Made by a program: the position numbers and the translations under genes
Notes under the pieces: model-generated
What the model was told of the DNA's origin: nothing
Seen by the model: only the letters and a program-made list of their open reading frames with translations
Database searches by the model: none
In this document: in pieces, positions 181 through 53,950 of the stretch
Layout of the letters: every line of letters begins with the position of its first letter
Numbering within the stretch: the first letter of the stretch is position 1
Source of the DNA: Geosiphon pyriformis
Lineage: Eukaryota > Glomeromycota > Glomeromycetes > Archaeosporales > Geosiphonaceae
Length of the DNA: 64,000 nucleotides
Reading direction: 5' to 3'
Assembly: GCA_016748015.1 (NCBI GenBank)
Contig: JAAOMT010000697.1
Span: 1,243,281 to 1,307,280 of the forward strand

Positions 181-483
181 ATTATCTAATAATATAAAAA
201 AAATAATGAAAAAAATTATAATTAAGAAAAAAAATAAAAAATTATACTAAAGAAGTTATTTTGAATTTAAGCTTAAAGATTATTAATAATTAATAAAATT
301 AGTAACTAATTAATTTTAAAATATTAGTATATAAAAATAAGTTTCAAAGTAATAATTTAAAAAGTTTATGTTTTATAATTTAATATATTATATTTGTGTT
401 TAGTACAAATTAAAAACTTTTTTCTCTCCTTCATTTAAAATTCCCAAAAAAGAGTTAAAAGTTTTTTGAAAAAAAGTTTTTTA
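181..483. other. AT-rich spacer
   Basis: Very AT-rich with homopolymer runs. No ORF, repeat or RNA gene is visible. It separates the LTR scrap from the LINE 5' end. Confidence 0.6.
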
Positions 484-551
484 CCATTCAGTACGATAAA
501 TTAAAACTGTTTTTTGATTTCAAGGCCACTGTTGGTCTTAATATTGCCATC

Positions 552-2354
552 ATGAAGAAAGCTGCCAAAAAATCTGGCTCTAGTGGTAGTCTTAGACCAG
601 TTCTACCAAGGAAAAAGAGAAGGGGTGGTGTCTTAGATGACATTGTCAAAGCTAAAATGAATTCTACTGGTGGTTCAGCTAGTTGTTCTTGGGGTTCAGA
701 AACTGGAAATATGACCAAGTTGGAAAGTATGGATATGGAAGAGGAGTGTTTAGTGGAAGAGACCAGTTTTTAACAAGAAAATGAGAAGGAACTTGGTAGT
801 GGCAATGCTGATATGACTTCCAAAGGTCTCAAAAGGACTGTTACAAAGTAATCTTTTGGTAAACCCATTGGTACGATTAATTTCAGTAAGAAATGTGATG
901 ATAATGATGATGTGTTAGATGAGTTGCTCTTACTCCTTCCTCCTCTGTCTCTTAAGCCTGTGGTCCAAATCTTGGTCAGAAAATTTTTTGCATTGGATAT
1001 CAATCTGGTTGCAGTGGTTGGGAAATTTTCTCAAGAGAAACTAAATTTTGTCAGGAAAATTTTTTCTGGTGTGAATGGTTTTGGGGGGGCCTCTATCCTC
1101 TTAAAATTTGGTGGCATAATCCGTGCTACTTTCACTTCTAATGAGACAATGATAGCTGTAGCAAATCTGGCAAATGATTATGATATTGTGGTGAACACTG
1201 GTCTCAAGTGCCCTGGCAACAATTGTATGAATCGGTCAATTGTGCTGAAAAAAATTCTTGTAGGAACATCTTTAAAGACTGTGCATGCAGCTGTGTCTGA
1301 GTTTGGTAAGATTGTGAAAATCAGAATGCAATTGGTAGGTTTGTGGTAAAAAGCGATTGTCAATTTAGAAGATCAAAATCAGGCTGATCTCTTGGCTTCT
1401 AAGTGGTCTATTCTTATTGGGAAAGATGTGGTTTGTGTGGCCAGAGCTGATGTAGATAAACAAATGTGGAATGCCAGGAATGAGTATAGGGCTTTGTTTT
1501 ACACTCTTCCTATGGGAACAACTGCTCATAATCTATGGGATTTTATTGGTTCAGTTAGTAGAAAGACATGTGTCATTGATCATAATTCTGTCAGCTATTC
1601 ATGTGCTCACTGTGCAACTGTGTGCTTTGGTTCTAGGTTTGATCTAGTTGATGCAATAAAAGTGACTCCCATTATAAAAGGTGTTGGTCTCCATTAGTCT
1701 TATCTCTCTTTGGTGTTGTGTTTGGTTTGCAAGTATTCTGGTCATACATCTCTTATCTGTGTTTTGGTTAAGGATGACTCAACTCTGAAGAAAAAAAAGG
1801 CTCTCTTTTTTATGCATGACCGGGCCAGATTGGCCAATATTTATGCAAAGAAGTCTGTACCTATATCTCATCCATTGTCTTTTGGTGGCAAAACCTGGAC
1901 TTCAGTAGTTGGTGCTTCTTCTAATGTTTCTTTTCATCAGGTTTCTTCTTTTGGTTCTATAGAACATAGTAAACTTCTCCCTTCTGTTGTGAATGATTTA
2001 GAAAGACAATTAATTGGCATTAAGAACAATTTCATCAGTCTTGTGGAACAAATTGTTGAGTTGGCTAAAAGATTGGATTCACTCATGCTAACAGTTTCCC
2101 AGTCTAGCTCTGAATGTCAGCTGCTGGTGACCTCCTTATCACAGAATCAAGAAGAGGATATAGTGATGGGAGCAAATTTGGGTGAAGCCACTAGTGACAA
2201 AACTGCTGCATTTAAGGACTTTTCAGTGTCCTCCCATGTTATCAAGTTGGAAAATATGTTAGAGGACTTTTTCAGATCTGTGTTGAGCTTATTTGCCCAC
2301 TTTGACAGTTTGGCTTTGGCTGGTGATGCTTTTTTTTTACCCATTTCTCAATGA
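552..2354 (+). pseudogene. LINE ORF1 protein (nucleic-acid-binding, CCHC zinc knuckle), disrupted by stops
   Basis: ORF1 of the LINE, expected to bind the element RNA. One frame runs from ATG 552 to TGA 2352-2354 (about 600 codons) and is interrupted only by four stops at 771, 849, 1347 and 1695. Text on both sides of each stop continues the same protein. Features in order: a Lys/Arg-rich N-terminus (PRKKRRGG, about residues 17-24), a central globular region, a CX2CX4HX4C zinc knuckle at 1,719-1,760, and a C-terminal Ser/Leu-rich part. The TAA after Trp at 1,347 and the TAG at 1,695 look like Gln and Trp codons lost by C:G to T:A change, judging from relatives I recall. The ORF1 stop overlaps the ORF2 start as ATGA. 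Confidence 0.85.
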
Positions 2355-5300
2355 GTGGTCTGGTTTGAAAAATTGCCATGTATAATGTTCGGGACATAAA
2401 CAATCCTGCAAAACAGGATGATGTTGTTTGTTGGCATAAAGATATAGGCAATTTGATTTTAATTGTTACTGAAACTATGTTGAAAGGTGGGATCCATCCT
2501 TGAATCATGAACAAGTTTGATAGTGTTCAGGTTTTTACTTCCAGTTTGGATGTTGGTCATTTGGATTCTGGTGTCACGATTATTATAAACATTTCTTTGG
2601 CTCGACATGTGTGTAAGGTTTTGGACATTTCTGGTTGGCTTCTTTCTATTAGATTACTCTTCAAAAATAAACTTTCTGTGTCAATTTTGGGACTGTATGC
2701 TGGAGCATTTCTGGCAGTACATTTTTTCTAGGCAGGTGAGATTAATTTTATGATTGTAAAGACTGTAAATGAATCTTCTTTTGTTGTCTTGGGTGGCAAT
2801 TTCAATGAAGATGGCTTTCACAAGAGCACTAGCTTCAAAAAATATTTTAACTTGGGTTTGGTCAATTTCTTGGATGGAAGCTCAATGAGAAAGTTGCCAA
2901 CTTTGTGCAATTTACGTGGTGTCACCAAAACAATTGATTACGTGTTTGTCTCCTCTAATTTGGTTAATGCTATTGTGGATCATAATGTGATGAGTGTTGA
3001 TGACTTTTTTGATACTGATTATAGAGCTGTTTTGGTTTCTGTGGGTCTGGGTGGTTTGTTGGATGTTCAATTGAATTCACTGTGCAAGCAAGCAAACAAG
3101 AATTGTTGAAAATTTGATTTTAAAAATGCAGATGATACTAGATAGTGTAAGTTTAAAGTGTTTACAGTGACCAATACTGCCATGTTTTCGGATGTGTTCT
3201 CTTTAGCCATGAGGTTTTCGGATTTGGATGTAATATGAGACACTGTTTGCAAGATTGTAATTCTCTCAGCAAATGGAACTTTCAAAAAGAAATGGTTCAA
3301 AGATTTTGATAGTGTTTACAATAAAGAGTTCTCTAGGTTTCATAAATTAAAGTTGCTGGTTTCTAAGCTGGTTAAGACTTCTTATTTGGTGTCTAATGCT
3401 GACTTTGTTTTTTTGTTGGAGAGGTGGGATGATTTTGACTCTTTTGGTGTGTTAGCAGTAAAATCTCTTTTTCTTTTGGGTTCTAGTTTTGATTCTATTT
3501 GGTCTGCTCTGGCCAAAACTAGGAAGTTATACTGCTCCTTCAAGCTGTCAGAGTTCAGATGTGCTGAGGAGTCTCACATTAGGCTGGCTATCAATAAAAG
3601 GATAAAAAGTTTTGAGTTAAACAAAGATCATACCATCAGGAGTGTTCTAGAGTGTTCTTCTCACAAGGTTGTTCTGGATCATCTGGTAATGGATGATGAA
3701 TTGATTTTGGAGCCTAATTTGGTTAAATCTAAGGTAGATGTGATTATGGAAGGATGGACCAGAAAACATAGGGTTGCGTTTGATTTTTCTGATGACTGAA
3801 TTTGCCAATATTAGCCACTAGATTATGTGTTCAATGATGCTTTTTCTGGTGTCATGTGTTCGATTAGTTTTGACAAAATGTTTGCTGTGATCAAGGATCT
3901 GCCTGATAGAAAGGCTGCTGGTCTCTCTGGCATTTCTAATGAGCTGTGGAAACATTGTGACAAGTCTGTTTTGGATATGCTTCTGGTGTTTTTGAATTTT
4001 TGCTTGGTTAGTGAATCAATACCTGGACTTTGGAGGGAAGCTTGGGTTTCAATGATTCCCAAACCATATGAATGAGAGAGTGTACTTACCAACACCTATT
4101 CTATTGCTTTGATTAAAACAGCCCAAAAGATTTTTTTCAAGATTCTTTCAGATAGAATTTCTTCCGCTTGTAGTGCTTTTGATGTTCTTTGTGGAGACAA
4201 TTTTTCCATTTTGAAAGATACAATAACACAGTCTCCCATTTTTGTCATTGGTTCAGTAGTTAAGGATGCATTGGAGAAGAGCAGAAAACTTTGGCTGGTT
4301 TTACAAGACATGCATAAAGCTTATGACTTGGTTGGTTGGGAACATCTCAAGGGGAGTCTGGTTAGGATCAAGATGTGTGACAAGTTTATAAAATTTTTTG
4401 GTGGCATTCACAAGGGTTGTATCAATAGGGTGATGACTGATTTTGGCTTAATAGATAAATATTGCGTTTATGATGAGTTGAATCAAGGAAAAGTTTTCTC
4501 ACCTCTCCTTTGGCGTATATTCTATGACCCACTTTTGTGTGAGATTAAAAGACAGAAGAGTGTATGTGGTTATTAATTGAATTCTCATTTTATTTCCAAA
4601 ACTGGTCAAGAGGATCCTCGTGTTGGGCTGACCTTGTTTCTTACTGCTGGTGCTTTTGTCAATGATATGATTTGGGTTGGTAGTAGCCAGACTGTTACAC
4701 AGCACATCTTTGATATTGCTAGTGAATTCTTTAGGATCAATGACATTTCAGTTAATAATAACAAAACTGTGGTCATCCTAATCAATTGTCGAGTTGTGAT
4801 CCCATGTTTTACTATTAGTGGCTCTCCTATTTTTATCACCAAAAAGAAAGTATCTTATTGTTATCTGGGTATTTTTTTGTCAACTGATAATATGTCAAGG
4901 CCCAGCTTGGCTAAGGCTTATTCAGATGTTTGGGTTTTTGCTAATCTTGTTTTGAAGAAGACAATCTCAGACAAACAATTTGCATATTTGGTGTCTGCTG
5001 TCTTTTTTCCAATTATCTGTTACAGAACTCAGTTCAGTTATGTCCCACTTAGTATATGTAATAAATGGGATGCTTTGATTTGCAAGGGCTTGAAGTCTAA
5101 GTCTAGCCTTCTACTCAATTTTCCCAGTAATGCTCTTCACCATCTTTCTTTGTATGGGCTGAAAACTTTTGAACAGATTCAGACTAAAAACAAGTCAGCA
5201 TCAGTCATTTTCTTTGCAAATTCTGTTGGTACTTTGGGTTGTCTGTTCTCCCACAGGTCTCATAATCTTCAGGTTCTCAGCTGGTGCTCCCATCACCCTT

Positions 5301-7039
5301 TGCAGTTTCCGGCTCATATTTGAGTCAGTCTTTCAAATAATTTTTTGTCAGGTGTGATCCATATTTTTTCTGGGTGCAAGTTGTCTCTGGGTGGTTCTCT
5401 GGTTGGTGCTTTTTGCTTTGGTAATGGCACTTCTATGTCTCTGGTTCTCAGCAAACAATATTTTTTCAAGTGTGTCTCCTCACTTCATTGCTATGGTATT
5501 GCATTCATGGAGCAGTTGCAAGACCAGGTTGGTGCTATTTTTAGTTAGAAAACCTTTAAAAGGTAGAAACAGTTGGACCCACATGGCCCTGTCCCTCTCT
5601 AATTTGAGCTTTCTGTTTGTTTTCTTGATAGTATGACAGCTTCTTTTTCTGGCCTTCCTCTGGTGGTTGGTCAGATTTCTTTTGATGTTCTACAATCTCA
5701 TAAGTTTGATGTCATTGGTAATAGTTTGTTGTGTGCTGGTGCTGCTTGTTTTTCTGTATTTACGGATGGATTTTTGAGTGGCTTGGATACTTCTGATATG
5801 AGAGCTGGCACTGCTGCATACTTTGAAAATATAGACTTGGGTTTGGGTGTGGAGATGTCAGGCTTGGTTTCTTTTACAATGATGGAGTTGCAAGTGATAA
5901 CTTTAGCTTTCAAGTGTGTTCTTTTCTTTCATTCAGTCAATCTGTTTTCTGACAGCCAGGCAGTCTTGGATGCTTGCAGGTCTGAGTCTTCTTTGTTTTA
6001 TCCAGATTTCAGAAATAGATGTTGGATTGAACACCATCACATAATGAATGTCATTCATCATAAAAATTTGGATGTAAACTGGATTAAAGTTAAAGGCCAC
6101 TTGGGAGTTTTGGACAATGAATATGCTGATGCATTGGCTAAAGCTGCTGTGTTATCTGATAGGCATCTGCCACATATGGTCAATAAACGTTTTTTGGTGG
6201 CTGATGGTACTGCTGTTTCTGGTAACTCTAGACATTTTGTTTATAATGTTTTTTGGTCTGTTCATTATGCACGTTAGAAGATTAGCTATGGTTCTCAGGT
6301 TGTGACAAGTAGTCTTAGTGCTAATATTGATTGGTCCAAGTTATTGTTGGTTTGGCATCCAGATTCTCATTTGGCTGTTGGTTTTACTAGTGTACAGACT
6401 GCTGGTCTACATTCTTATTTCATGAAAACTTTACATCACCAGCTCCTGGTGGCTGTATGGAAGCATCTTTAGAATAAGTGTTATTCTAATGTTTTATGTC
6501 TGTTCTCTAGGGACATTGAGGTCTCAAATCATGCCTTTTCTTGTTTGTTTGAAGCTTCTGTTCATGTTTGTTTGTTGGACATTTGTGCCTCTGCTTGGGA
6601 GATGTGTTCTGATTTGCTTTGTTCCTCCTTGTGCATTTTTCAGTTGTTGTATACTTGTGCTTTGAATGTAGACATTAGTGTTGCTCTGTATAAGAGCTTT
6701 GTTTTCAAAGATTGGTTTAATAAGTCTGTTGCCATCTTCAAAAATCCCAAGGCCATGAGTGTGTGTATAGTGAACTTTGTATGTAAGTTGTGTGCAATGT
6801 TTCGTGAGAAGGTTTAGCTGGTCTATGCCAAACACTGGGTGTTTATGGAAAAAAAGGGGTTGATCCCAAGTGACGGCTTCATTTTTTCTTTGGTTTCTGG
6901 TCTCTTTTCAAGGCTTTCTGCTGGTGTAGTCAAGTTGTTAGGTATTGCCAATGCTCGTGATATTGGTTTTGGGTTTCGTAAGTCTTGTCAGTTTTTTTTG
7001 GGTATTGGTGACATAGTCTCTGTTTATATAAGTGCCTAG
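2351..7039 (+). pseudogene. LINE ORF2 polyprotein (AP endonuclease, reverse transcriptase, RNase H), disrupted by stops
   Basis: ORF2 would nick the target and copy the element RNA. One frame of about 1,560 codons runs from ATG 2351 to TAG 7037-7039 without a frameshift, but has 17 internal stops (2366, 2501, 2729, 3107, 3143, 3236, 3797, 3812, 4073, 4574, 5321, 5546, 5564, 5600, 6275, 6470, 6815). The endonuclease (about 2,370-3,080) shows GGNFNED and TDYRAV where active members have GGDFN and a TDH-type motif. The RT (about 3,830-5,000) has FVND at 4,655-4,666 instead of the catalytic FVDD. The RNase H (about 5,740-6,150) keeps its acidic set (TDG, MEL, SDS, NEYAD). A C-terminal cysteine/histidine motif near 6,500 is degraded. 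The copy cannot encode an active enzyme. Many stops sit where relatives have Trp. Confidence 0.92.
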
Positions 7040-7044
7040 TGTTG

Positions 7045-7100
7045 TTTTGATTGGCCTGAGTGGCTAGTCACATGTAAAAAATGCATGATTCGCACCTAAT
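7045..7100 (+). repeat. LINE 3'-terminal motif
   Basis: The 3' UTR ends with a GTGGCTAGTCACATGT block followed by an A-rich stretch and GCAT. Similar blocks end the LINE fragment at 34.33-34.38 kb (minus) and stand alone at 56.23-56.26 kb, so this is probably a conserved 3' end recognised during reverse transcription. Confidence 0.6.
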
Positions 7101-7249
7101 TTAGATCATTTGAATAATGTATCGTACTAGGCCACATTTGGACTTCACTCATTAAATGTTTAAAAAAAAAATTAAATTAAATTATTAATTAAATAATAAT
7201 TTAGATAATTTGCTAAAATAATAAGTAATAAATCAAAATAATAATATAT

Positions 7250-9935
7250 GTTAATTAATAATAAAAATTATAAAAATAATTTTATTTTAATTAATATCTT
7301 AAATTTTAATTAATAATAATATATTTACTATATATAATTAGCTATTTAACCAATTTAAACTACAATATACAGACATTATATTACTTATTATATTATTTAT
7401 AGCAATAAAAAACAAATAATAAAATTATTTTTTAAATAAATTACATAATTTTTTTTAATACTAAACAAAAAAATTATTTTACTTAAAATATAATTAAAAA
7501 GTTTTTTGATATTAACCAGAGCTAAAATTTTTATTGACAAAATTCTGAATTTTTTTAACTTTATTTTAAGTTTTAAAATAAACAATCAAATTTGCTTTCT
7601 ATAACCAAAAACTAAATTATATACAAAATTTATTATTTTAAAAAAAGCCAGTTTAGTATATTTAAAAGCCATTCTGACTTTAGCCACTTATAATTTGAAC
7701 ACAAAATTTTTACATAAAACTATATACAAATTCATATTAAAAACACTTAAATTAAGTTTTAAAAAATAATAAAAGAAAACAAATTAGTATTAAACAAAAA
7801 GTATCATAAAATTGAATATACAATTAAAAAATTATATTATATTATTTGGTTTTCTTAACAGACAAAACTATAATTAAAAATTTTTATTTTATTATAATAT
7901 ATACAAAAAACACTATGATAATGTTTATTATAAAGTTTTTTTAATAATCATTAACAGTTTATAATATAAAGTCTTTATAATATAAATATATAAACTTGTT
8001 ATGAATTTGTTAGTAAAACTAGTTGTTATATATGAGTTAAGATGCCATATTAAGACTATTGCTTCTTAATTAATATTATTAACATATAAAAAACTTACTA
8101 TATTAGGCACTAAAACTTATTTTTTATAAGATTTTTCAAACAATATTATCTAAAACAGCTTTTTTACCAGTTATTATATAGCTTTCAAACACATTAGTAA
8201 AAAGTATTAAACCAGAATAAATTGTAAAATCTGTTAAAATATTGGCATATTTATTGTTTACAATTTTTAAATATTTTTTTATTTTTATTTATTTAACAAA
8301 CAAATTTTTATTATAAATAATATTAATTATACAATAACACTTTATTTAGTAAAAATTTTAAAGATCAAGTTTTAATAAATACAATTCAAAATAATAAGCA
8401 TCAATAGTAACTTGGCTATCTAAAAAAATTTTAACATAAGAAAAAAAATACACACTTAAAAAACAAAATAAAAACTAATAATTCAGTTAAAACTAAGAAG
8501 AATAGACTATTTACTTGTATATTTATACCTAAATTTAAACTAAAAAAATATGTTATTGTATTAACAACAACAAAATATAACTAAAATTATTAACAAAATT
8601 ATTTGTAAAGATTGATAAAATATTTGAATTATTATTTTTTAAAATAGATTTGATATCAAAAAAAATCTAACATATTTAATATACTTAACTTAATAAAAAC
8701 TTGAAAAGATAAATTAAAATTTATAAAACTCTCTAAAAGTACAAATTTAAACATCAAAAAAAATTAAAGCTCTTAAAATTTTTCTAAAAAAAACACTTTT
8801 TTAAACTGTTCAAAAATTGTTTAGCTAATATTATTTCAAAATACTTCAAAAATTTGACAATTTTAGAATACTTAATAATCTTTATAATATCTAAAACAGA
8901 AGAATTATAATATTACTTAAAAACAATAACTTGTAAATCTATAATTTTATATTTAAAAACTATTTTAGAATGCTATTAATATTAGCAAAATTAACAATAA
9001 AAGCAATTTTATTTTTAATTTAAGCTTAGTTAAAAGACTTTAGATTGTAAAATAAGAGATAATACATTATATTACTTGAAAAAGTTTTTGGCAAACCAGT
9101 ATTAAACTTTAAATTATGCTTAATAATCAGATTTTATTTTGTATATAAATATTTATTAACAAAACTAAATTGTATTTTATAGCACAAAATAAGATACAAA
9201 ACAGCAGAAACCAAATATGTAAATTGTTTGTTTAAAATAATTTTTTATTAAACAATTACTAAAAAAAATTTTATATTAAAACTGGTTTTTTTAAAGTTAG
9301 ATATTAAAAGATTTTTTAATAATATATAAATTTCTAAATATTTATAAGGCTTATTAAATTTAATAATTAATATAGTGAAATTATTTATAATCAAATTAAC
9401 TTTTAAAGTTTACATATTAATAGATATAGCAACAGTTTTATTTAAATTAATAGCTATATTATTAATATTAAAAAACTTATCAATAATATTCAAAATATTT
9501 TGCATAGCTAAATAACTGTGTTTAATTCAAATTGTATTATTAATAAAAACATATACTATTAAAAATAACATCAATTTTATATCAAATTCAATTTTATTGG
9601 TCTTAATTATATATTTAAAGTCAATTTTATAACTAAAAAAATATTATGTTCTCAGACTTTATATAAAAATAGATTATAAAAAATTCTTTATATAAAAATA
9701 AAACATTTTACTTTAATTTAGATTATTATAAACTGTATACTTACTAATTAAGCCAAAATTTGTTATAATTTTGTTAATATAGCTATTATAAATATAATTA
9801 AAAAATTTAATAAACTTTAAACACATTTTAATTTTTAATAAGCATTTTTGCAAATATAATTAATCTACTAAATTAAAATATCTACCAAAACCAAAAAATT
9901 ATTTTTTTTAAAATATTATACTTATTATACATACT
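7250..9935 (-). pseudogene. Second LINE copy, ORF2 3' half, heavily AT-eroded
   Basis: Translation of the minus strand reproduces the ORF2 of the first LINE almost residue by residue, although the DNA is now very AT-rich. Examples: KMCLKFIKFF and ITNFGLISKY (about 9,840-9,740) match the RT; KQFTYLVSAVLY (about 9,220) matches KQFAYLVSAVFF; SLIWH...SFTNKF (about 8,050) matches LLVWH...GFTS; KNFVFK (about 7,720) matches KSFVFK. The catalytic box reads VFINNT at about 9,555. Replacements are V to I, P to L, D to N, H to Y and G to S, with many stops. The 5' part is missing; the copy ends abruptly at the LTR beginning near 9,940. The 3' boundary near 7,250 is approximate. Confidence 0.82.
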
Positions 9936-9941
9936 GTTATA

Positions 9942-10850
9942 GGTGATTATTTAAGGTGTTGAAATAAATAACAAATCTGTAATTTGGTATTCAATAGTTA
10001 TTGATAATGGTAATTTCTGAAAGTTTTGTAATTTAAAAGTTTTGGTTAAATTTTTTGTATAATAGACAAAGATTCAAACTGGTTGTTTCTTTTGTAAATT
10101 TTTTTTTTTAGTATAGTGATTGGTTTAATTTAACAGTTATATTCTTTTAATAAATTATTTTTAAGTTTTCTATTTTTGTTTTATGGGTTTTTTATCAAGC
10201 TATTCTTTATATTAATTACTCAATACTTAATCTCTTAATCAATTAATAACAAAAAAATAAAAATAAAAAATTAATATTTTGTTAATAGTTATGATCAAAA
10301 GCTATTGGTTTAATATAGTTAAGTATTGGATTTTATTAACATAGATTGTTGATAATATAAATATAATTAATATTTTTTAATCAAGCAATGATAATATAAA
10401 TTAGATAATAATAAAATAAACAAAATATTAGCCAAAAAGAAAATTAGCAAAGTTATTTTTATAAAAAATAGATTAATTAATATTTTATTAATATGGATAT
10501 AATTTTACTTTAAGTTATAAAAAACTATCTTTTAAAGAAAAAAGTATTTGCTAACTATTAATTATTTGTTACTGTTTTGTTTTTTTTGTTTTTAATACTT
10601 TTACTATATATACATAATTTGTATTATATAAAATTCTATATATTTTTACTTTTTTTTACATTTCTTTTTGAAAATGTACTCATTCTTGAAAATATGTTGT
10701 AATTTTTTGAAAATATGCTATAATTTCCTAAAAATATACTTGTTAAATATTATTTTCTTATTGGTCTATTTTATAATCTGTTTTTTATTTTTTTTTTGTA
10801 TTTTTTTTCTATAAATAATAATATTTTTTTTTAGTATTGAATTCTGTTGA
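9942..10850 (-). repeat. Ty3/Gypsy LTR, left arm of a large inverted repeat
   Basis: This segment is the inverted counterpart of 12,990-13,820. Over one 69-base stretch (10,257-10,325 against 13,412-13,480) I count roughly nine differences. It contains a TATATATACATAATTTGTATTATATAAAA promoter-like block (about 10,603-10,632) that is also in the other arm. Lying downstream of a minus-strand integrase, it reads as the 3' LTR of a minus-strand Gypsy element that abuts, and probably truncated, the second LINE copy. Confidence 0.65.
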
Positions 10851-10859
10851 AATTTTTAT

Positions 10860-12960
10860 TTTGAATTAAGTTTATTAGTTTTTTTTTCTAATATTATTTG
10901 TTTAATTTTGGTTCTTATATCTTTGAATTAAGAGTTGGTTATTTTTTTTCCACTGGTTAATAATTATTGTTTTTATGTCTAAAAATAATAGTATTTCTGA
11001 ATAATCTTAAAATATAGTATGTAATTAATAAATTGTTTTGATGTATAGTATAAAATTTGTTTTTTTTATAAAGTTTTTAATTTGTTGTACTATTTTTTGA
11101 TTGAACATTTTTTTGGATTTGTTAATATATAATTTCTAAATATTCAGCTTTTGTTTTAACTGATAATAGCAATATGTTATTAGAAGTTGTTTTATCTATA
11201 GCTTTCAATTTTATTTAATTAATTTTTCAATTGAAATAGTAATTAGTATTTTTTTAAAAGTGTTTTTTACTTTTTCTATAATTTTATTTGATAAATGCTT
11301 TGTTTAGTTTTGTGGTTGTTAATATAAAATAATTTTTTCTTTTTTTTTTTCTTTGTGTTTTATAACAAATTATTTGAAATTAATAATTATTTTTATGTCC
11401 AATTGTTGTTGATTTATAATTTGAAATAATTGTTGTGTTATTGTATAGATGTAGTTTGGAATTTTTATTTTTTATTATTGTTTTTGTCATATATACTGAG
11501 TTTTTATATATTATTAATTTGATTTACTTTTTTGCATTTTTTTTAATAATTATGATTAATTCTAAATCTTGTAAAATTTTATCTGATTTAATTAGTATTT
11601 TTTGTATTTTTAGTTGTAGAATATTATTGGTAGATAATAATACTATATTGTAATATGGTTTCAATCAATTATTATGTACTGCTTTAATTAAAATTTTGTT
11701 ATTCTATCTTAATTTATAAGTTATATTTTCTAGAATTTTTTTGATGTAAAATGAATTATTTTATTTAGAATTAAACTTTTTATTCTATTGTTTTTTTGTT
11801 TTGATATAATGTAAAAATACTTTGTTTTCAATTTTAAATTTGACCAGTTTATTTGGTAATTGGTTGTTATGTTATTTTTTTTGTTTTTTATGATTTTTGT
11901 ATATTATTAAATATTTTCATCTTTTGTTTTTTAGAGTTTTATTAAGTTATATGTTTTTTTCAACAATGTTTTTTAAATCTTGGCTTCTGTTATTGGTTTT
12001 ATTAAATATGTATTGATATCTATCTCAACTGATAATATTGCTGTTTTTTTATATACTAATTCAAATGATATTATTTATATAATATCTTATTTTATTATCT
12101 AATAAGCAAATAATACTAATAATATAAACAAATCTTATTTGTTTTGGTTTTTTTGGCTGATTTTAGATATTGTTTTGTATAATGTTTTATTAAATCTTTT
12201 GACTAAATTATTTGTTTATAAATAATATAAAAATAATAACAGTCTTTTAATTCCAAATTTTTGACTTAATTTTATTAATGTTTTGTTTACAAAATAAGTT
12301 TCTTAATCTAATAACAATTTTTTTAAACATTTATGTCAATAAATCAAATCTTGATATATAAATTTAGCTACAAATTTTAAATCTGCTTTTTAAATGGTTT
12401 TAGCTTTTGGCTATTTTGTGAGATAGTAAATGACTACTGCTATATATTAATTACTTTTGCTAACTATTATTAATGGTTTTATTAAGTTAATTCTAATCTA
12501 ATCAAATAGTTGTCTCACTTTAATTGGTTTTAATGATTTATTGGATTTTGTTTCTTTTTTTTTTTAATAAACATTACAATTTTAAACATATTGAATAATA
12601 TTTAGATATATTAATAGCTAATAGTAATTTTTTGGAGTTTTTTTATGTTTGCTTTTTTATAAAAATATTTTGCTATTGGATCTAAATACATATTAAATAG
12701 TATTGTTTTTTTTTTGGTTTTGTGATTATTTTGAGTGGCTGGTTTAGATTTTTTCTGTTTTTTTAATATAATATATTTTGATAAGTAATAAAGTATTTTA
12801 ATTGTTGTTTTATGTTGTTTTGTTTTTTTTAAAATAATTTTTTCTTGAACTATTGAGTATTAATATAATATTAAAATTGTTAATATTTTTATGTATTTAT
12901 TTTTTGATATATTTTTGAAATGAAATGTTTTATTTGTGACAAGTTATTAACATCTCTATT
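10860..12960 (-). pseudogene. Ty3/Gypsy pol remnant: integrase zinc-binding region, core and C-terminal part
   Basis: The minus-strand translation shows a retroviral-type integrase in order. An AKYF...KLQK stretch is a relic of the zinc-binding domain (about 12,690). PIKVRQLFD (about 12,520) is the linker, VIYYLTK (about 12,430) the first catalytic block with its Asp lost, and DLKFVAKFIYQDL (about 12,370) part of the core. RFNKTL and KISQKNQN (about 12,200-12,140) are the conserved 'ERFN' helix, followed by FELVYKKTA (about 12,030). After about 11,650 it becomes unreadable. Integrase joins element cDNA to the host genome, but this copy has many stops and shifts. The RT and RNase H parts expected upstream are absent because the region ends at the opposed LTR near 12,990. 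Confidence 0.75.
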
Positions 12961-12989
12961 TTTTTTATAGTACACTGTATAATTGAATA

Positions 12990-13820
12990 GTAATAAATTT
13001 ATTTTCTATTTTGCATGCTAATTATTGTTAATTATAAAAAAAGATACAAGAAAAGATAGAAAAAACAGATTATAAAAAAATAAACCAATAAGAAAATTGT
13101 AATTAATGAATAAATACATTTTTAAAAATAAGCACATTTCTAAAAGTAGCACAAAAAAAAGTAGAAATGTGTAAAATTTTATATAATACAAATTATGTAT
13201 ATATAGCAAAAGTATTAAAAGCAAAAAAAACAGAACAGTAATAATTAATTAATAGTCAACAAATATTTATTTTTTTAAAAGATAGTTTTTTATAATTTAA
13301 AATAAAATTATATTTATATCAATAAATATATCTATTACTATTCAATTTATATTATTATTGTTTAATTAAAAAATCTTAATTACTTTCATACTATTAAAAA
13401 TTCATGTTAATAAAATTTAATACTTAACTATACTAAACCAATAACTCTTGATCATGATTATTAACAAGATATTAATTTTTTATTTTTTTTTATTTGGTTT
13501 TATTATTTACTAATTAATTAAAAAATTAAGTACTAAATAATTGATATCAAAAATAATCTGGTAAAAAACTCATAAAACAAAAATAAAAAACTTAAAAATA
13601 GCTTACTAAAAGAACATGACTGCCAAATTAAACAAATTATCATGCTAAAAACAGAAATTGAGAAAAAACCATTACTTGAATCTTTGTTCATTATACAAAA
13701 GACTTAACCAAAATTTTTAAATACCAAAACCTTTAAAAATTATCATTAAAAATAGCTATTAAACATCAAATTACAGATTTGTTATTTGTTTTAACACTCC
13801 AAATAATTATTTGTAATATT
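12990..13820 (+). repeat. Ty3/Gypsy LTR, right arm of the inverted repeat
   Basis: It is the inverted counterpart of 9,942-10,850 and is followed directly by a primer-binding-site-like TGGTGCTC and then a gag pseudogene on the plus strand. It therefore reads as the 5' LTR of a plus-strand element. A TATA-rich block lies at about 13,180-13,207 on the minus-strand reading shared with the other arm. Boundaries are approximate (about 20 bases). Confidence 0.65.
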
Positions 13821-18574: not shown

Positions 18575-18690
18575 ATTTCTGATTTAATTTTTTCAGAAAT
18601 TTGAAATTCTTATTTATTAGTCTTGAAAATTCTTTTTTACCCATACAAAACATTTAAGATTTAATAATCTATTTGTGTTGCTTGAAAATT
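18575..18690 (+). promoter_or_regulatory. Upstream region shared with the inverted paralogue
   Basis: The 115 bases before the ATG at 18,691 resemble the 137 bases before the ATG of the minus-strand paralogue (53,813-53,950). Shared blocks include CTTATTTATTAG, TTACCCATA/TTACTCATA, AACATTTAAGA/ATATTCAAGA and TTAATAATCT/TTAATAGTCT. Likely promoter or 5' UTR of the kinase family. No clear TATA box. Confidence 0.4.
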
Positions 18691-21669
18691 ATGTCTTCAA
18701 AATTATCAATTGAAAACCCAACTTTATTCTTTGACTGATTTGAAGGAATATTTATAGTTATCAATAAAAGTTTGTTCATTTTTCTAGCTAGTAAATATTC
18801 AAAAGTTGTTGACTTAGTTAAAATTTATCTTGTACACAATCAGAAAACTCTTAAAGACTTATTTAATTGCTTAAATAATAAAAATCCAAAGCATTTAATA
18901 GACAATATCTTGCTTGGCTTTTGTTTAGAACATGGAATTGAAACTATTCCTAATTTGACAAAAGCATTTTTAAAATTTCAGAAAGCAGCAAATGCAGAAA
19001 ATTCTTTTAGACAATTTTTTTTAGATTATTGTCATAATAATAGAATTGATACTTCAAAAGATCAAGAAAAAGCATTTGAACTCTATTTAAAAACAACAGA
19101 GATAGGACATTTAGATACACAATACACTTTTGTAATTTGCTATGCTAACGAGGAAAAAACAACAAAAAATAAGGAAAAAACATTTAAGCTTTATTCAAAA
19201 GTTGCAGAGATAAGACATTTAGATACACAATACAATCTTGTAATTTGTTATCAAAATGGAGAAAGAATAACAAAAAATGAGAAAAAAACATTTTAACTCT
19301 ATTCAAAAGCTGCAGAAGCAGAATATTTAGATGCATAATACAGTCTTGTACTTTGTTATAATAAAAAAAAAAAACAATGAAAACTTCAGAAAAAGCATTT
19401 AAACTTTATTCAAAAGCAGCAAAAGTGAAACATTTAAATACACAATATATTGTAATTTGTTATGCTAATAGAGAAAGAATGACAAAAAATTCAAATAAAG
19501 CATTCAAACTTTATTCAAAGCAGTAGAGACAGGACATTTAGATGCATAATACACTTTTGTACTTTGTTATAATGAAGTAGAAAAAATGACAAAAAAAGAA
19601 AAAAAAGCATTCAAATTTTATTCAAAAGTTGCAAAGACAAGACATTTAGATGCACAATATGCTCTTGTACTGTGTTATGTTAATAAAGATAGAATAATGA
19701 AAAATAAGAAAAAAACATTTGAGTTTTATTCAAAAATTGCAGAGACAGGACATTTAAATACACAATATGTTCTTGTATTTTGTTATGCTAATAGAAAAAA
19801 AACAACAAAAAATGAGGAAAAAGAATTTGAACTTTATTCAAAAGTTATAAAAGCAAGACATTTAGATACACAATACAATCTTGCAATTTGTTATGAAAAT
19901 AGAGAAGAAATAATAAAAAACAAGAAAAAAGCATTTGAATTTTATTCAAAGACTGCAAGAGCACAACATTTAAATATATAATACAATCTTGCAATTTGTT
20001 ATGAAATGGAAAAAAAATAACAAAAAACGAGAAAAAAGCATTTAAGTTCTATTTAAAGGCTGCAGAGACAGAACATTTAAAATACACAATATAATCTGGC
20101 AGTTTGTTATACTAATAGATAAAAAACAACAAAAAATGAGAAAAAAGCATTTGAACTCTATTCAAAGACTGCAAAGTAGAACATTTAAAGCACAATATGC
20201 TCTTAGAACATATTATTGAAATCGATTAAAAACAACAGAATATTTAGAAAAAGTGGAAAATCTGAATTCACAAACTAGTATTAAAACATATTATTGAAAT
20301 GATGGGAAATAGTAAAAAATTATGAAAAAATATTTCAATTCTATTTAAAAACTGCAGAGACAAGAAATCAAAATACATAATATAACCTTGAATAATGTTA
20401 TTAAAAAGGATAAGAAATCACAAAAAATCTCTAAAAAGCATTTGAATTCTATTTAAAAGCAGTGAAAGTAAATAACTTATGTTATCGAAGTAATATTACT
20501 AATATCAATGTCTATAAACTTATTTTAGAAAACCAAAACAATCTTGAATATATTATTTTATGATTTCAAAATTAAGACTTTAAACATCTTGATAATTTCA
20601 ACAGAGAATTTTTAGATTTTAAAGCTTTTTTTAACCAGTTTTTAGATGAATTTAAGTGTTTTAAATATGGCAACTTGAGTATAATTATTAATGGATTTCC
20701 TATATGTCTATTTTGTGATACTGATAATAGTGATAATAATGTTTTTGAAACAGATTTGTCAAAATGTTCAGAATGTAATAACACATTAAAAGATCCACTT
20801 TTTTGAATCATTATGATTTTTAAAGATTTAGAGAACATGAGATAGTAGAAATGATAATATTAATCAGTATATATTATTTACACAAAGTATTTTTGAAAAC
20901 CGCAAAAACTGTTTGGAATAGATTTCTTTTGACAAAATCGAATTTTTTGATTAAGTGGGAGAAGAAAAATTTGGTATTGTCAAAAAAAATAGATGGGAGA
21001 ATAGTAAAATTTTATTTTGGGACAAGAATATTTAAAAGTATGAATGAACTGGGATTACAAAAGTTGTTTTGAAATATCTTAAAAATAGCCAAAATATAAA
21101 ACATATTAATTCAGATAAGATATTTTTTTTTAAGAAATCTATGTGATTTTTATTATTCCAATTTCTTTTTTAAACTAAAAACTGTATTTGTATAGTTTAT
21201 TGTGCATCATCAAAGTGCCACCTGCAAATACATTATTAAATGCTATGGAACCAAAAATCTTATAACTAATGAATTTATTATAGTTTTACTATTTATAGAA
21301 CACAGGAACTTCAAAGCTTGTCTCAAGTAAAAATATCTTCATTTAACTTGAGAAATATTTGTTTATATTTTTTTTTAAATTGTTGGTGGGCTAAAATTTA
21401 TACATAAATTAGAACTAGTGCATAGAGATTTACATCTTAAAAATATTTTTGTTTTGAAAACAAACCTCTTAAAAATTGTTATTTCTGATTTTGGCCTCTG
21501 TTGTCTTGCAGATGATGCTCTACAATCTAGAAACACTTATGATGTTCTTGAGTATCTTGCACCTAAAATTTGCAAGGGTGGTTTTTATACTAAATATAAC
21601 AATATATATAGCTTTGCTATTATTTTATGTAAAATTATATCAGAAGAAAGACTTTTATATGTTCAATGA
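18691..21669 (+). pseudogene. Sel1-repeat / zinc-ribbon / protein kinase pseudogene (paralogue A)
   Basis: Start ATG at 18,691 (MSSK) matches the paralogue at 53,812 (MSSN). The first break is TGA at 18,736, where the paralogue has Trp. An N-terminal helical domain (LVHNQKTLKDLFNCLN, HGIETIPNLTKAF) is followed by at least 11 Sel1-like repeats. The 'ACATTTA' anchors run from 19,107 to 20,181 at 104-108 nt, i.e. 36 residues. Then come two CXXC pairs (20,718-20,781, CLFC and CSEC), and a kinase with the glycine loop VGEEKFGIV (20,955; one Gly now Glu), TKVVLKYLK, HRDLHLKNI (21,421), SDFGLC (21,484), LEYLAPK and NIYSFAI (usually DIYSFAI). Numerous stops and several frameshifts, especially after 19,290. 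Tyrosine-kinase-like/Sel1 proteins are expanded in Glomeromycotina; the substrate is unknown. Confidence 0.8.
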
Positions 21670-36545: not shown

Positions 36546-38420
36546 TAAACAAAATACAGAAATCCATATGGATACAGAATAGTATTGAGTTATTTTAGTA
36601 TTGAGCATGCCAATATAGAAATACAGCAAGCACTAAAACGTTCTATAAAATACTAATAAGTCTTTTTTCAAGCATTAACCATAAGTATCTATAGAATAAA
36701 AACTTATATAAAAGTAGAATAACATTAAGTTATTCTAGTAAAAAGTGTCTTAATATAAAATACAACAAATATTATTAGGTGTTAAAAAGTCTCTTTTCAA
36801 GCATTAATCATAGATATCTATAGAATAAAAACTTGTATAAAAGTAGGATAACATCAAATTATTTTGGTAAAAAGTATGCTAACATAGAATACAACAAGTG
36901 CTAAAATGTTCTATTAGATGCTAAAAAGTTTTTTTTTAAGCATTGGTTATAAATATTTATAGAATAGAGACTTGTATGAGAGTAGAATAATATTAAGTTA
37001 TTCTAGTAAAAAGCATTTTAGCATAAAATACAGTAAGTAATATCAAGTGTTAAGAAGTCTTTTTTTAAGCATTGACTATAGGTATTTATAAAATAGAGAC
37101 TTATATAAAAGTAAAATAATATCAAGTTATTCTAGTAAAAAATGTCCTAATATAGAATACAGCAAACACTAAAATGTCCTATTAGATACTAAAAAGTTTT
37201 TTCTAAGCATTGGCTATAAATATCTATAGAATAAAAATTTATATAGAGGTAAAATAACATGAAGTTATTCTGGTAAAAAGCACTTTAGCATAAAAAACAG
37301 CAAGTATTCAAACATCTTGTCAAGTGTTAACAAGTTTTTTTTCAAACATTAGTCATAGGTATCTATAAAATAGAAACTTGTATAGGAATAAAATAATATC
37401 AAATATTCTGATAAAGAGTGTTTTAGCATAAAATACAGCAAGTACTATCAGGTGCTAAGAAGTTTCTTTTCAAACATTGATTATAGGTATTCATAAAATA
37501 GAGCCTTATATAGAGATAGGATAATATTGAGTTATTCTGGTAAAGAGTGCACTAACATAAAATACAGTAAGCACTAAAATGTCTTATCAGATATTAAGGA
37601 GTCTTTTTTTAAGCATTAATCATAGATATTTATAGAATGAAAACTTATATAAGGGTAGGATAACATCAAATTATTCTGGTAAAAAGTGCTTTAGCATAGA
37701 ATACAGTAAGCACTAAAATGTTCTGTTAGGTGTTAAGGAGTTTTTTTTCAAGCATTGGCTATAAATATCTATAGAATAAAGACTTATATAAGAGTAAGAT
37801 AATATTGAGTTATTTTGGTAAAAAGTGCTTTAGTATAAAATACAGTAAGTACTATTAGGTATTAAAAATTTTTTTCCAAACATTAGCCATGGATATCCAT
37901 AGAATAAAAACTTATATAAGAATAGAATAATATCAAGTTATTCTAATAAAAAGCATGTTAATATAGAATACAACAAGTACTAAAATGTTCTATTAAATGC
38001 TAAGAAATTTTTTTTCAAGTATTAGTTATAGGTATCTATAGAATAAAAACTTATATAGAGATAAAATAATATTAAATTATTCTGGTAAAGAGTGCTTTAA
38101 CATAAAACAAAGCAAATGTTGAAATGTTTTATTAAGTGTTAACAAATCTATTTTTAAACATTAGTCATAAGTATTTATAAAATAGAAACTTATATGAGAA
38201 TAGAATAACATCAAATTATTTTGATAAAAAGAGCTTTAGCATACAATACAGCAAATACTATCAGGTGCTAAAAAATCTCTTTTCAAGCATTGGCTATAGA
38301 TATTTATAGAATAAAAACTTATATAAAAGTAGAATAATATTAAGTTATTTTGGTAAAAAGCACATTAGTATAGAATATAGCAAGCACTAAAAGTCTTGTC
38401 AGGTGCTAAGAAGTTTTTCT
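36527..38420 (+). repeat. Satellite array, 14 units of two length classes (128-129 and 138-139 bases)
   Basis: The anchor AAGCATTGGCTATA (and variants) starts at 36,527, 36,670, 36,799, 36,938, 37,067, 37,205, 37,344, 37,472, 37,611, 37,750, 37,878, 38,017, 38,156 and 38,285. Spacings after the first are 129, 139, 129, 138, 139, 128, 139, 139, 128, 139, 139 and 129. The ten-base difference is the presence or absence of an AAAATGTTCT-type block after TACAGCAAGCACT. Every unit has GAATAAAAACTTATATA and TTATTCTGGTAAAAAG blocks. Scattered transitions distinguish units. No ORF spans it. Confidence 0.92.
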
Positions 38421-42132: not shown

Positions 42133-42797
42133 GCTTAAAGTTATTGGAAAACATTTAAATAAAAGCATACTAAAATTTTCACAAATTAGCATGATCATTT
42201 TATAAAAGGATATTTAATAAAATGGTTTTTTAAAACTTGTCACAGCTTAACACACTAAATTTATTCTTAAAAAACTTTGGTTTATAAAAGTTATTATTAT
42301 TGTTATAAATATTTAAATAAAATAAATATTATTTGCTTGCTAAGTCATATTTGTTTAAACTGATATACTTATCTAATAAAATAAAGAGAGTGTAATGAAT
42401 ATTTCTTTAATTTTAATGAATGTAATTTTTGACGAAAATAAATCTGATAAATTGAAAAAGTAATATATATAATTAAATCTTGAATATAGTTAAAAATTCA
42501 AAAAAGTTTTTTTTGAAAAAAGTATAAATGACCAATTAAATGGTTTCATATATGAGTTTTTTTAGTATTTATTTATTGTAGTTTTACTTAATGTGAAAAT
42601 TCAAATAAATACTTTAAAAACATATTAATAAAAATTTTAAAAATTGTAAACATAAATGTAGTCATAATCCAGTTTAATTACTAATACATAAAACTCCTTT
42701 GGTAAAAAAATGTTAAAATATTAAAAAAAGTTGCAAAATAAGAAATAATTTGGCATTTACTTTACTAGCTTCTGTCTATTTACTTTATAAATTTTTT
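42133..42797 (+). repeat. Direct repeat, upstream copy, flanking the kinase pseudogene
   Basis: This non-coding stretch resembles 45,309-45,906 on the other side of the kinase gene, in the same orientation. Examples: AAAGTTATTGGAAAAC / AAAGTTATTGAAAAAG; TTTGGTTTATAAAAG / TTTGGTTTGCAAAAA; TTCTGTCTATTTACTTTATAAATTT / TTCTGCCTATTTACCTTGCAAATTT. It is the 3' flank of the gene duplicated upstream. Confidence 0.6.
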
Positions 42798-43192
42798 AAA
42801 ATATTTAAGAATTTAAATGTATACTAAATTATCTAGTATAAATTTTATTGGTTTTTTATAATAAAGTTTTATATTCATGGTTAACAAAAATTTTTATCAA
42901 CTATATTAAGATAAAGTATTTTATTAATTAATAATTTCATATTTAAAATAATTAAAGCATAGTTGTTTTATTTCAATGTACATTTTATTAAAATCTAAAT
43001 CAGCTGCAACTATAACCTTTGTAAATTTTAACTAGTATATGTATAATGAAACCTAGCCACTTAAATCAAAATGATTTTCAATATCTATTATAACACTCTC
43101 TGTATAACCCCATCATAACGGCGAAAATTTTTGCTGTTCTAGTTAAATACTATACATTTGATTTAAAAATCCCGCAACTATTTCATCATAAA

Positions 43193-45187
43193 ATGATGTC
43201 TTTAGCTGCCAAGTTACCTTTGCTAAAAACACCAACGTTACCAGTATCAGTGGTCGAATAGTTTGAAACCTTTATTCATAACAAACAAATCAAATATTTT
43301 GAATTCAATAAATTTCATAACAAAAACAGCTTGGTGATGAAGCTTTCAGCACTTTAGAGAAGGCAAATTATACTATAGGTGGTATGGATATAATATTCGC
43401 ATTGAAAAAACTTAAACGAGTCCCAGAAGATGATAAAACAGAAATAGAAGAATTCATAAAAGAGGTCTGAATGAAAATTTTTTACATGATTAGTAAAGTA
43501 AAAATTGCTATATTATTTAGCTAAAAAATTTCTAAAAACTTTTAGCTGAAATTCCTGCAAGATATTGATTTTTTCCCTAAATTCAAAAATTTTATGGTCT
43601 TAACAAAACTATAGAAGGTATTTATTCTCAAGGCTCTATGATAAAATTTATTTTACAAATCCTAATCTTACTTTATGAAAATGCTTTAGATAATAATACA
43701 AAACATATTTTAGTTTTTGAATACGTTAAAGGAGGTTCTTTGTGTGATCATCTATCATTAGAGTTTCAAAATATGAATGGAAAAGAAAAGCTTCTGATGG
43801 CACAGGAATTAGCAAGGGGAATTCAATGTCTTCATAAAAACCAAATGATTCATTAAAATCTTGTAGGTTTTAGACTTTGAGATTTCAAAAGCTATTTAAA
43901 AATTAGACTCTACCACTAAATTGTTTATTTTTAGAATTCATCAAATATTTTAGTGCATAACAAAACGGTAAAAATATCCGAAAAATCTAAGTGAAATGGC
44001 TAGGGTTAGCCAATGAGCTTAAAGGCCAACCTGCTTACATAGACCCTCAATGTTTTAAAGATGAACAATTTATTCGAAATAAGAAATCAGACATTTATGC
44101 TCTGAGCGTCCTCCTATAGGAATTAACAAGTGGTCGCTCACCATTCAAAAATACTAAAAAGTGGACACTTATGTGTAAGTAAATTTTAATTTAGCATATT
44201 TCTTTAAAAGTTTACTTATATGTAAAAACTACCAAATATTATTAGTCCAAATTGCTAATGGTATACGAGAAACTCCTATCGAAAAGACACTAACTGAATA
44301 TATTGCATTGTATAAAAAGTGTTGGAATGAATTACTCAATAAACGGCCTAGCATTAACGAAATGAACGAAAAACTCAAGAGAATTCAATGGAATTCGGAA
44401 CATGCTTTGAGTTCTCAAACGGGCTACGTAGAATTAACACCGCAGTTAACAAGTGAAACCACCTTAGTAAGATCTATGGGTTTGGCTAATACAAGCATCA
44501 TGGCTCTTTTACAAGATATTTTCACTATAATCAACGAAGTCTTAAACATCTATACATATGAAGATATCTCAAAAATAATTCCTCGGGTAGAAAAACACCT
44601 TACAAATACTGGGCAAAGTTCGACAGATCTTTTCGAATCTGCTTGGTTTTTTTTACCAATTTGGAATTGAGATTGATATCAACTTGGAGCAGGCATTTTT
44701 AAAATATCAGAAAAGCGCTTCTCAAAAAAACCCCTTGGGACAATTTTTCCTTGGAAAATGTTATATTAAGGATACTGGCACTGAAAGAAATAATGCAAAA
44801 GCAGTTGAATGGTATACTAAAGCTGCGTAAAATGGACATTTAGATGTGCAAAATATTCTTGGAGTTTGCTATAAAAATGGGAAAGGAGTAACCAAAGACC
44901 TTGCAAAAGTAGTTGAATAGTATAAAAAAGCAGTGGAAAAAAAACATGTAGATGCACAGTTTAACCTTGCTTCTTGCTATGAAAATGGGAAAGATTTTGC
45001 AAGAGCTGTTAAATGGTATAAAAAAACAGCGGAAAAAGAACATTTAAGGGCAGATTTTAGCCTTGTTTCTTGTTATGAAAATGGGAAAAGAGTAACCAAA
45101 GATCTTTCAAAGGCAGATGAATGGCGTACAAAAGCATGGCAACTAAATACAAAAGGAAAGAACGATTTGATGTTTAAACTTTTATAG
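43193..45187 (+). pseudogene. Protein kinase with C-terminal Sel1-like repeats, intron-bearing pseudogene (D)
   Basis: The best-preserved cellular gene relic. ATG 43,193 (MMSLAAKLPL) leads to VVE-stop-FETFIHNKQIKYFEF, then a kinase. The glycine-loop region QLGDEAFSTLEKA lacks its glycines; FALKKLK carries the VAIK lysine; then comes ILVFEYVKGGSLCDHL. The catalytic HRD reads His-stop-Asn (43,851-43,859), and DFG is missing after VKIS. YIDPQCF, SDIYALSVLL-stop-ELTSG and KKCWNELLNKRPS complete the C-lobe. Introns fit GT-AG at 43,465-43,545, 43,863-43,934 and 44,175-44,245. After a 120-residue linker and a frameshift in a T8 run (about 44,652), four Sel1 units follow to TAG 45,185-45,187. Stops sit at Trp or Gln positions. 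The kinase resembles tyrosine-kinase-like families of Glomeromycotina. Confidence 0.85.
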
Positions 45188-45308
45188 ACTCTTAATTTCT
45201 TAGCAAGAACTATTAATCTTCACTATGGAATTATAATCTTGCAATATACTAGTTTGAGAATTGGTCGAAAATAATATTCTTTACTGAGATAATCTTTGCA
45301 TCACAATC

Positions 45309-45906
45309 AGCTTTAAAGTTATTGAAAAAGTTTCAATGGAGAACTTTTCTGAGACTTGCTACAACTTGATTTATTGAATTTTTTTTAAACGACTTTGGTT
45401 TGCAAAAACTGTCATTGTTGTTATCAATTTTTAAAAGTATATGTTTTACATATTAAATTATTTGCCTAGCATAATATATTAATCTAAACGAGAAAAAAGA
45501 ATATTTTCCTTAGTTTTAATGAGTTTTATTTTTAAAAAATTAAATTTTTAGAATGCTGAATTTGATAAACTGTGAAAACTAATAAAAAATAAATCCTTAA
45601 ATATAGTTGAAATTTAAAAATGCTTTCTTAAACATGAAAAAAATATATATTTATTTTGTTAAAACAATAATTTGGAACATAAGAAAATATAAATAAATTA
45701 TTAAATTTCAGTATCTTTTAAATTTATAACCAAGCTCTTTCATTCAATGACAAACAGGTTTACTTTTTCTAAACGGCTATCAACAATTATAGACATAATA
45801 TGGGTATTTAATTTAATAGATAATAAAATGCTATAATAGCAAGCTAGAAAAATAATTTCAGCAACAATATTACTAAATTCTGCCTATTTACCTTGCAAAT
45901 TTTTAG
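45309..45906 (+). repeat. Direct repeat, downstream copy, flanking the kinase pseudogene
   Basis: Partner of 42,133-42,797, offset about 3.1 kb. It begins about 120 bases after the kinase stop codon, so it is the natural 3' flank; the upstream partner would be the 3' flank of a lost tandem copy. Confidence 0.6.
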
Positions 45907-53812: not shown

Positions 53813-53950
53813 GATTTCAACCAAAACAAGAAGACTATTAAGTCTTGAATATTTTATATGAGTAAAGAAGGAGTTTGTCTTGCTAATAAATAAGGATTTT
53901 AACCTCTAATTACATTCCTGAAAAGGCTAAGCCTTGAAGAAATTAGAAAT
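53813..53950 (-). promoter_or_regulatory. Upstream region shared with paralogue A
   Basis: Conserved with 18,575-18,690 in the same position relative to the ATG. It shares CTTATTTATTAG and TTTTCAGGAAT/TTTTCAGAAAT blocks. The TTTTCAG could be a 5' UTR splice acceptor. Confidence 0.4.

Follow-up and report, generated by a model that had tools for sequence, protein, structure and literature searches.

Directional C:G to T:A decay of a triplicated LINE and other repeats in a likely arbuscular mycorrhizal fungus: a RIP-like signature with sparing of the tested gene duplicates

What kind of process fills a retrotransposon with stop codons and leaves its reading frames unbroken? The question is raised by a full-length non-LTR retrotransposon (LINE) at 420-7160 on the forward strand of the window, the whole stretch of 64,000 nucleotides analysed here, which lies in contig C317 of a genome of 124.7 Mb in 406 contigs. 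A full-length relative (E), 71% identical and with different flanks, aligns to 421-7155, and the 5' start is common to fragments of other copies. ORF1 (552-2354, forward strand) keeps one frame in translation, with internal stops at 771, 849, 1347 and 1695, and specifies a CCHC-like motif (CLVCKYSGHTSLIC); its 3' part found no match in a Pfam search. ORF2 (2351-7039, forward strand) likewise keeps one frame through internal stops at 2366, 2501, 2729, 3107, 3143, 3236, 3797, 3812, 4073, 4574, 5321, 5546, 5564, 5600, 6275, 6470 and 6815. Between these stops, Pfam recovers RVT_1 (4109-4573, E 3.9e-7) and RNase_H (5633-6274, E 6.1e-11), and this combination of an ORF1 with an ORF2 carrying reverse transcriptase and RNase H places the element among the LINEs with RNase H. 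The endonuclease motifs GGxFN and TDx of ORF2 are recognised by eye, Pfam giving no endonuclease match. The two frames meet in an ATGA (2351-2354), where the ATG of ORF2, retained in most relatives, overlaps the ORF1 stop, an arrangement that likely reflects termination-reinitiation.

The first-pass annotation had described this LINE as destroyed by nonsense changes only, with four stops in ORF1, 17 in ORF2 and no frameshift, and a recount gives the identical total of 21. In alignments of the window copy (W) to E and to two further copies (B and C) we find no frame-breaking indel in W: the gaps against E are all of 3 bp, and those against B and C are all located in B or C. The codons in relatives show 13 of the 21 stops to have been TGG (Trp), five CAA or CAG (Gln) and one CGA (Arg), as the same annotation had it in placing the stops mainly at Trp, Gln and Arg positions. 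C:G>T:A changes account for 19 of the 21; at 6470 a transversion (TAC>TAG) made the stop, and the codon at 849 reads TGA in B and C as well. The active-site changes that had been explained in the same way do each come down to one C:G>T:A step, namely GAT>AAT in FVDD, GAT>AAT in GGDFN and CAT>TAT in TDH. At sites where B and C agree, W had 63 one-step opportunities for a stop in ORF2, and random placement of its mutational load of 11.2% predicts 7.1 W-specific stops where 8 are observed; hence, the stops call for no special targeting.

The order of events can be read from the flanks, for W, B and C are copies of one duplicated block and not three separate insertions. The upstream flank (1-374) is common to copy B (contig C295) at 98.9% identity, and its part at 156-374 also to copy C (contig C239) at 99.5%, marking a segmental duplication. 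The downstream flank (7161-11819) is common to all three copies over at least 4.6 kb, with transition-to-transversion counts (Ts:Tv) of 133:14, 106:16 and 113:22, and the similarity of the W flank to C295 extends towards 17160 at about 90%. Copy C has a deletion of 514 bp, and the LINE of copy B carries an insert of about 10 kb (C295:929540-939366), with 6 bp of the LINE absent at the junction. Five stops (849, 2729, 3143, 5600 and 6275) are common to W, B and C, so the LINE was already dead before duplication of the block, and W acquired its private changes only afterwards. Errors of reverse transcription or RNA editing are thereby rejected as the source of the W, B and C differences, since the private changes follow the duplication and extend into the flanks. 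Two further observations concern this flank. A cold patch at 8971-9571 has only 2 (W-B), 6 (W-C) and 0 (B-C) transitions against 10-26 in neighbouring 600-bp stretches, and copy B lacks 186 bp inside it; gene conversion or a later insertion is possibly responsible. An element at 9946-13807, with inverted arms of about 0.8-0.9 kb at 72% identity and dozens of genomic relatives, is probably a DNA transposon.

The LINEs of W, B and C differ by ~10%, and nearly all of this divergence is made of transitions: the 702 (W/B), 629 (W/C) and 593 (B/C) substitutions break down into Ts:Tv of 689:13, 616:13 and 582:11, a Ts/Tv of about 50. Transitions no commoner than transversions would, in the first-pass annotation, have refuted its reading, and transitions are in fact far the commoner. 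When each copy is polarised by the other two, 11.8% of C sites have changed to T and 10.6% of G sites to A, and the load is about equal among the copies (W 245, B 216, C 207). Polarisation is safer than in this trio in a second family of LINEs, represented by five copies: there, C>T reaches 7.0% and G>A 4.9%, against 0.07% for A>G and 0.14% for T>C, and C>T or G>A make up 311 of 335 private changes, with 13 transversions. The changes are thus almost only C:G>T:A and on both strands, as in RIP. In W, B and C, 241 changes seem at first to run from A to G or from T to C, but this excess was set aside, 174 being expected from context double hits and the five-copy family showing rates of 0.07-0.14%.

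The context of the changes is distinctive. CpG sites in W, B and C are mutated at 47% and 63% as against about 10% elsewhere, although these figures rest on only 19 CpG sites per strand. With CpG as the hottest context, again resting on few surviving CpG sites, deamination of 5-methylcytosine (5mC) fits. The majority of the changes nonetheless lie at non-CpG cytosines, themselves ~20-fold accelerated relative to transversions, which implies dense non-CG methylation or enzyme-promoted deamination. Among the non-CpG contexts TpC exceeds GpC about two- to three-fold; in all groups TCA, TCC and TCT stand at 10-12%, and ACA, ACT, GCA and GCT at 3-4%. No preference for CpA is seen; in W, B and C it is mutated at 8-10%, the same as CpT and lower than CpC. 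The RIP indices that had been put forward as a check, TpA/ApT (0.70) and (CpA+TpG)/(ApC+GpT) (1.48), are not RIP-like for the LINE, where RIP would make the first high and the second low; they return a false negative, as the favoured contexts here are CpG and TpC and CpA is not among them. Neither strand runs nor clustered spacing of the mutations were found in eight copies (all |z| <2).

Duplicates of host genes provide the baseline. The kinase-Sel1 gene region of the window (42600-45546, forward strand), with paralogs at 90-95% identity, gives Ts:Tv of 51:25, 107:31 and 77:18, with 8, 16 and 7 gap openings, respectively. A Sel1 gene region (18601-21635, forward strand), which has its paralog at 52076-53902 on the reverse strand, gives 89:41, 84:35 and 135:52, and a duplicated methyltransferase gene gives 50:22. 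Pooled, the gene duplicates stand at 593:224 (2.65), and those of the kinase and methyltransferase genes at 2.0-4.3; the baseline comprises seven pairwise comparisons in three families, some of them overlapping and non-independent and some with indel-prone tandem repeats. The excess of C:G>T:A in the LINE over the gene duplicates is ~20-fold (Fisher p<1e-44, a value that is indicative as comparisons overlap), and a single pair (W-K1) alone yields p = 2e-18. A genome-wide transition bias is rejected by gene duplicates with Ts/Tv of 2-4. Duplicates of 95% and 90% identity, each over 2.3 kb, and of about 89% over 1.1 kb are untouched, and those spared include host genes at a distance of some 36 kb from the LINE.

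The same baseline bears on the missing indels, which the first-pass annotation had treated as an anomaly. Between W and B the LINE shows 3 indels against 13 transversions, and the genes have 0.27 indels per transversion; as the LINE ratio equals the gene value, suppression of indels is rejected. Since indels per transversion match those of genes, the scarcity of LINE indels reflects the youth of the copies by neutral standards, C:G>T:A alone being accelerated. Of the fast directional process that had been envisaged soon after insertion, the directional C:G>T:A process survives, with a Ts/Tv near 50 as against 2.65 in genes; the proposed timing does not, the W-private changes having followed the duplication of a dead element and run into its flanks.

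The signature reaches well beyond one element. In the downstream flank (7161-11819), C>T affects 8.2% of C and G>A 5.7% of G, with TpC favoured; each C or G has changed there about 0.5-0.7 times as often as in the LINE, and the signature thus spans 4.6 kb outside it. In a wider set of LINEs, with Ts/Tv scored inside ORF2, the purest and youngest pairs give Ts:Tv of 180:0, 194:2 and 246:3 over 2551 bp. Across 153 LINE pairs the counts follow Ts = 179 + 3.19 x Tv, so that the long-term divergence proceeds at a ratio like that of genes and a constant number of transitions, unaccompanied by transversions, is added to it. The flanks of these other LINE copies with the same signature are mostly unrelated. 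For a different family of LINEs the counts are 200:4. All of the 39 relatives that score best against one LINE copy (L003) are 92-95% identical to it, with none closer among them. The tandem array of a 139-bp satellite unit at 36619-38418 bears the same signature as the LINEs: its 139 columns comprise 69 invariant A/T, 1 invariant C/G, 55 transition-only and 2 transversion-only columns. The array also repeats at a higher order, every 406 bp or so.

Genes for C5-methyltransferases lie at about six loci of the genome. Those on C355 and C327 are DIM-2/DNMT1-like, with a BAH match that is clear in one and weak in the other; by eye, the one on C96 is DNMT1-like and those on C307 and C346 look like DNMT2. 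The C318 gene is of the DNMT1 class and may be of RID, DIM-2 or DNMT1 type. On this contig the methyltransferase gene and a damaged inverted duplicate of about 89% identity lie 32 kb apart (L041 and L043, at C318:788.8 kb and 820.7 kb). As for the host, a search of the genome for the type I fatty acid synthase central domain (PF08354) came back negative, there are about 2000 Sel1 candidates in the genome, and kinase-Sel1 genes are present in the window. We take the combination of no type I fatty acid synthase with very large Sel1 and kinase families to point to a Glomeromycotina host, as supportive evidence and not as proof. An 18S rDNA primer pattern had no match in the genome, and we place no weight on this.

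On balance, we favour a methylation-coupled C>T mutagenesis of repeat chromatin that is RIP-like without being canonical RIP, and we hold this reading somewhat likelier to be right than wrong. With transversions and indels as the yardstick, transposon- and satellite-rich blocks gain C:G>T:A changes ~20 times as fast as gene duplicates do. The process acts on DNA that is already inserted, hitting single sites on either strand and in all contexts, most strongly at CpG and next at TpC, and it covers whole duplicated blocks inclusive of their non-coding flanks. The DNMT1-class and DIM-2-like enzymes encoded here may methylate repeat chromatin in the CG context and, more weakly, outside it, and 5mC would then pass to T via enzyme-promoted or poorly repaired deamination. 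What is observed comprises the mutational spectrum with its direction and context, the changes on both strands and over whole blocks, their recurrence in other repeats, the escape of the tested gene duplicates and the methyltransferase genes; the methylation of these loci, the enzyme, the timing and the host lineage are inferences. Such a defence would be directed by the state of the chromatin and not by a scan for homology. Among known systems, the mitotic C>T mutation in methylated repeats of Zymoseptoria tritici, which depends on Dim2 and needs no sex (PMC8016269), is alike in its C>T changes in repeats and its link to DIM-2, genes like DIM-2 and DNMT1 being encoded here as well. Against the favoured reading, CpA sites receive more than 98% of the C>T changes in that system and CG is no hot spot (PMC8016269), unlike the LINEs here with CpG hottest and TpC second; further, in the literature we examined, non-CG methylation is without demonstration in arbuscular mycorrhizal (AM) fungi. 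The RIP-like TpCpG mutation of Microbotryum (PMC5381629), which PMC4352252 takes as consistent with 5mC deamination, shares with our LINEs the T before C and the CpG context but differs in that non-CpG sites supply most mutations here, in a putative Glomeromycotina host.

The simplest rival dispenses with any defence: permanently silenced repeats might lose 5mC through spontaneous hydrolytic deamination, as at vertebrate CpG. The strength of CpG, the unclustered mutations that show no strand runs and reach the flanks, and the mCG of AM fungal transposons (PMC8647823) all agree with this, but the non-CpG cytosines, which account for most changes and are themselves about 20-fold accelerated against transversions, would oblige it to assume nearly full non-CG methylation together with very weak T:G repair; we judge it unlikely, if still to be taken seriously. 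The likeness to canonical RIP, in which a hidden sexual cycle would include a premeiotic scan for duplications by a RID-type enzyme that mutates all copies, is closer in form. As in Neurospora and other Ascomycota, the changes are nearly only C:G>T:A, on both strands, across whole repeated blocks with their non-coding parts, and leave frames intact and stop-filled; the about equal loads of W, B and C and the absence of any relative closer than 92-95% among the best-scored 39 of L003 would also suit it. Yet RIP would strike all duplicated DNA above a few hundred bp, genes included, and here the kinase-Sel1 and methyltransferase duplicates escape, CpA is not preferred and the classical indices are negative. 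In addition, the putative host is not an ascomycete, a review lists RID for Ascomycota only (PMC13297926), and none of the methyltransferases found here was recognised as RID, the DNMT1-class C318 gene being the one candidate. With the escape of gene duplicates and the lack of CpA preference, we consider canonical RIP decidedly improbable.

A cytidine deaminase of the APOBEC/AID type, acting on exposed single-stranded repeat DNA or on cDNA during retrotransposition, would explain the TpC preference, and five loci of the dCMP/cytidine-deaminase family are found in the genome. It should leave its mark in strand-coordinated runs or clusters, of which the eight copies (|z| <2) show none, and CpG is hotter than TpC; editing of cDNA, moreover, cannot have produced the changes private to W, B or C because they follow the segmental duplication and also lie in the flanks. 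We give this reading very little credence. Equally far-fetched in our estimate is the view that the pattern came from ordinary mutation under a strong transition bias throughout an AT-rich genome, or from assembly error in methylated repeats. Some C:G>T:A bias is to be expected in so AT-rich a region, but the kinase and methyltransferase duplicates keep their low Ts/Tv and each kinase pair its 7-16 gap openings, at odds with the LINE at the Fisher probability given above, and assembly error cannot plausibly corrupt about 11% of C and G with A and T staying right, nor yield shared stops.

A C:G>T:A repeat signature in a likely AM fungus contrasts with the reported absence of RIP from these fungi. 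RIP signatures are stated as undetected in Gigaspora margarita or Mucoromycotina in a passage of PMC8647823 that cites this result, and among 1,239 screened genomes ascomycetes alone were reported to show RIP-like enrichment (Badet and Croll 2025, PMC12543289). That screen tests k-mer enrichment in repeats over non-coding DNA, and it could miss the LINE signature because the mutated LINEs are still GC-richer than their surroundings (37% versus roughly 15-25%). In Rhizophagus irregularis, likely of the same subphylum, most transposable-element loci are highly CG-methylated (PMC8647823), providing the methyl mark that would feed mutation; the difference is that we found no mutational consequence described in that paper. 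The triplicated block is itself a natural experiment: an element of 6.7 kb is present three times with no less than 4.6 kb of its flank, and each copy offers hundreds of scored changes against a common clock of transversions and indels. We regard it as evenly balanced whether AM fungi have a C>T mutator of repeats whose distinct signature is CpG and TpC in place of CpA, and which destroys transposons and satellites but exempts large host gene families. It would have gone undetected since the RIP indices presuppose CpA and since k-mer screens set repeats against intergenic DNA that is still more AT-rich. If so, repeat-directed mutagenesis would be wider than thought and need not block the growth of gene families, which is the usual cost of RIP. 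Should the process be independent of sex, it would offer a defence to lineages long considered asexual; should it depend on sex, it would be a genomic trace of hidden sex in them.
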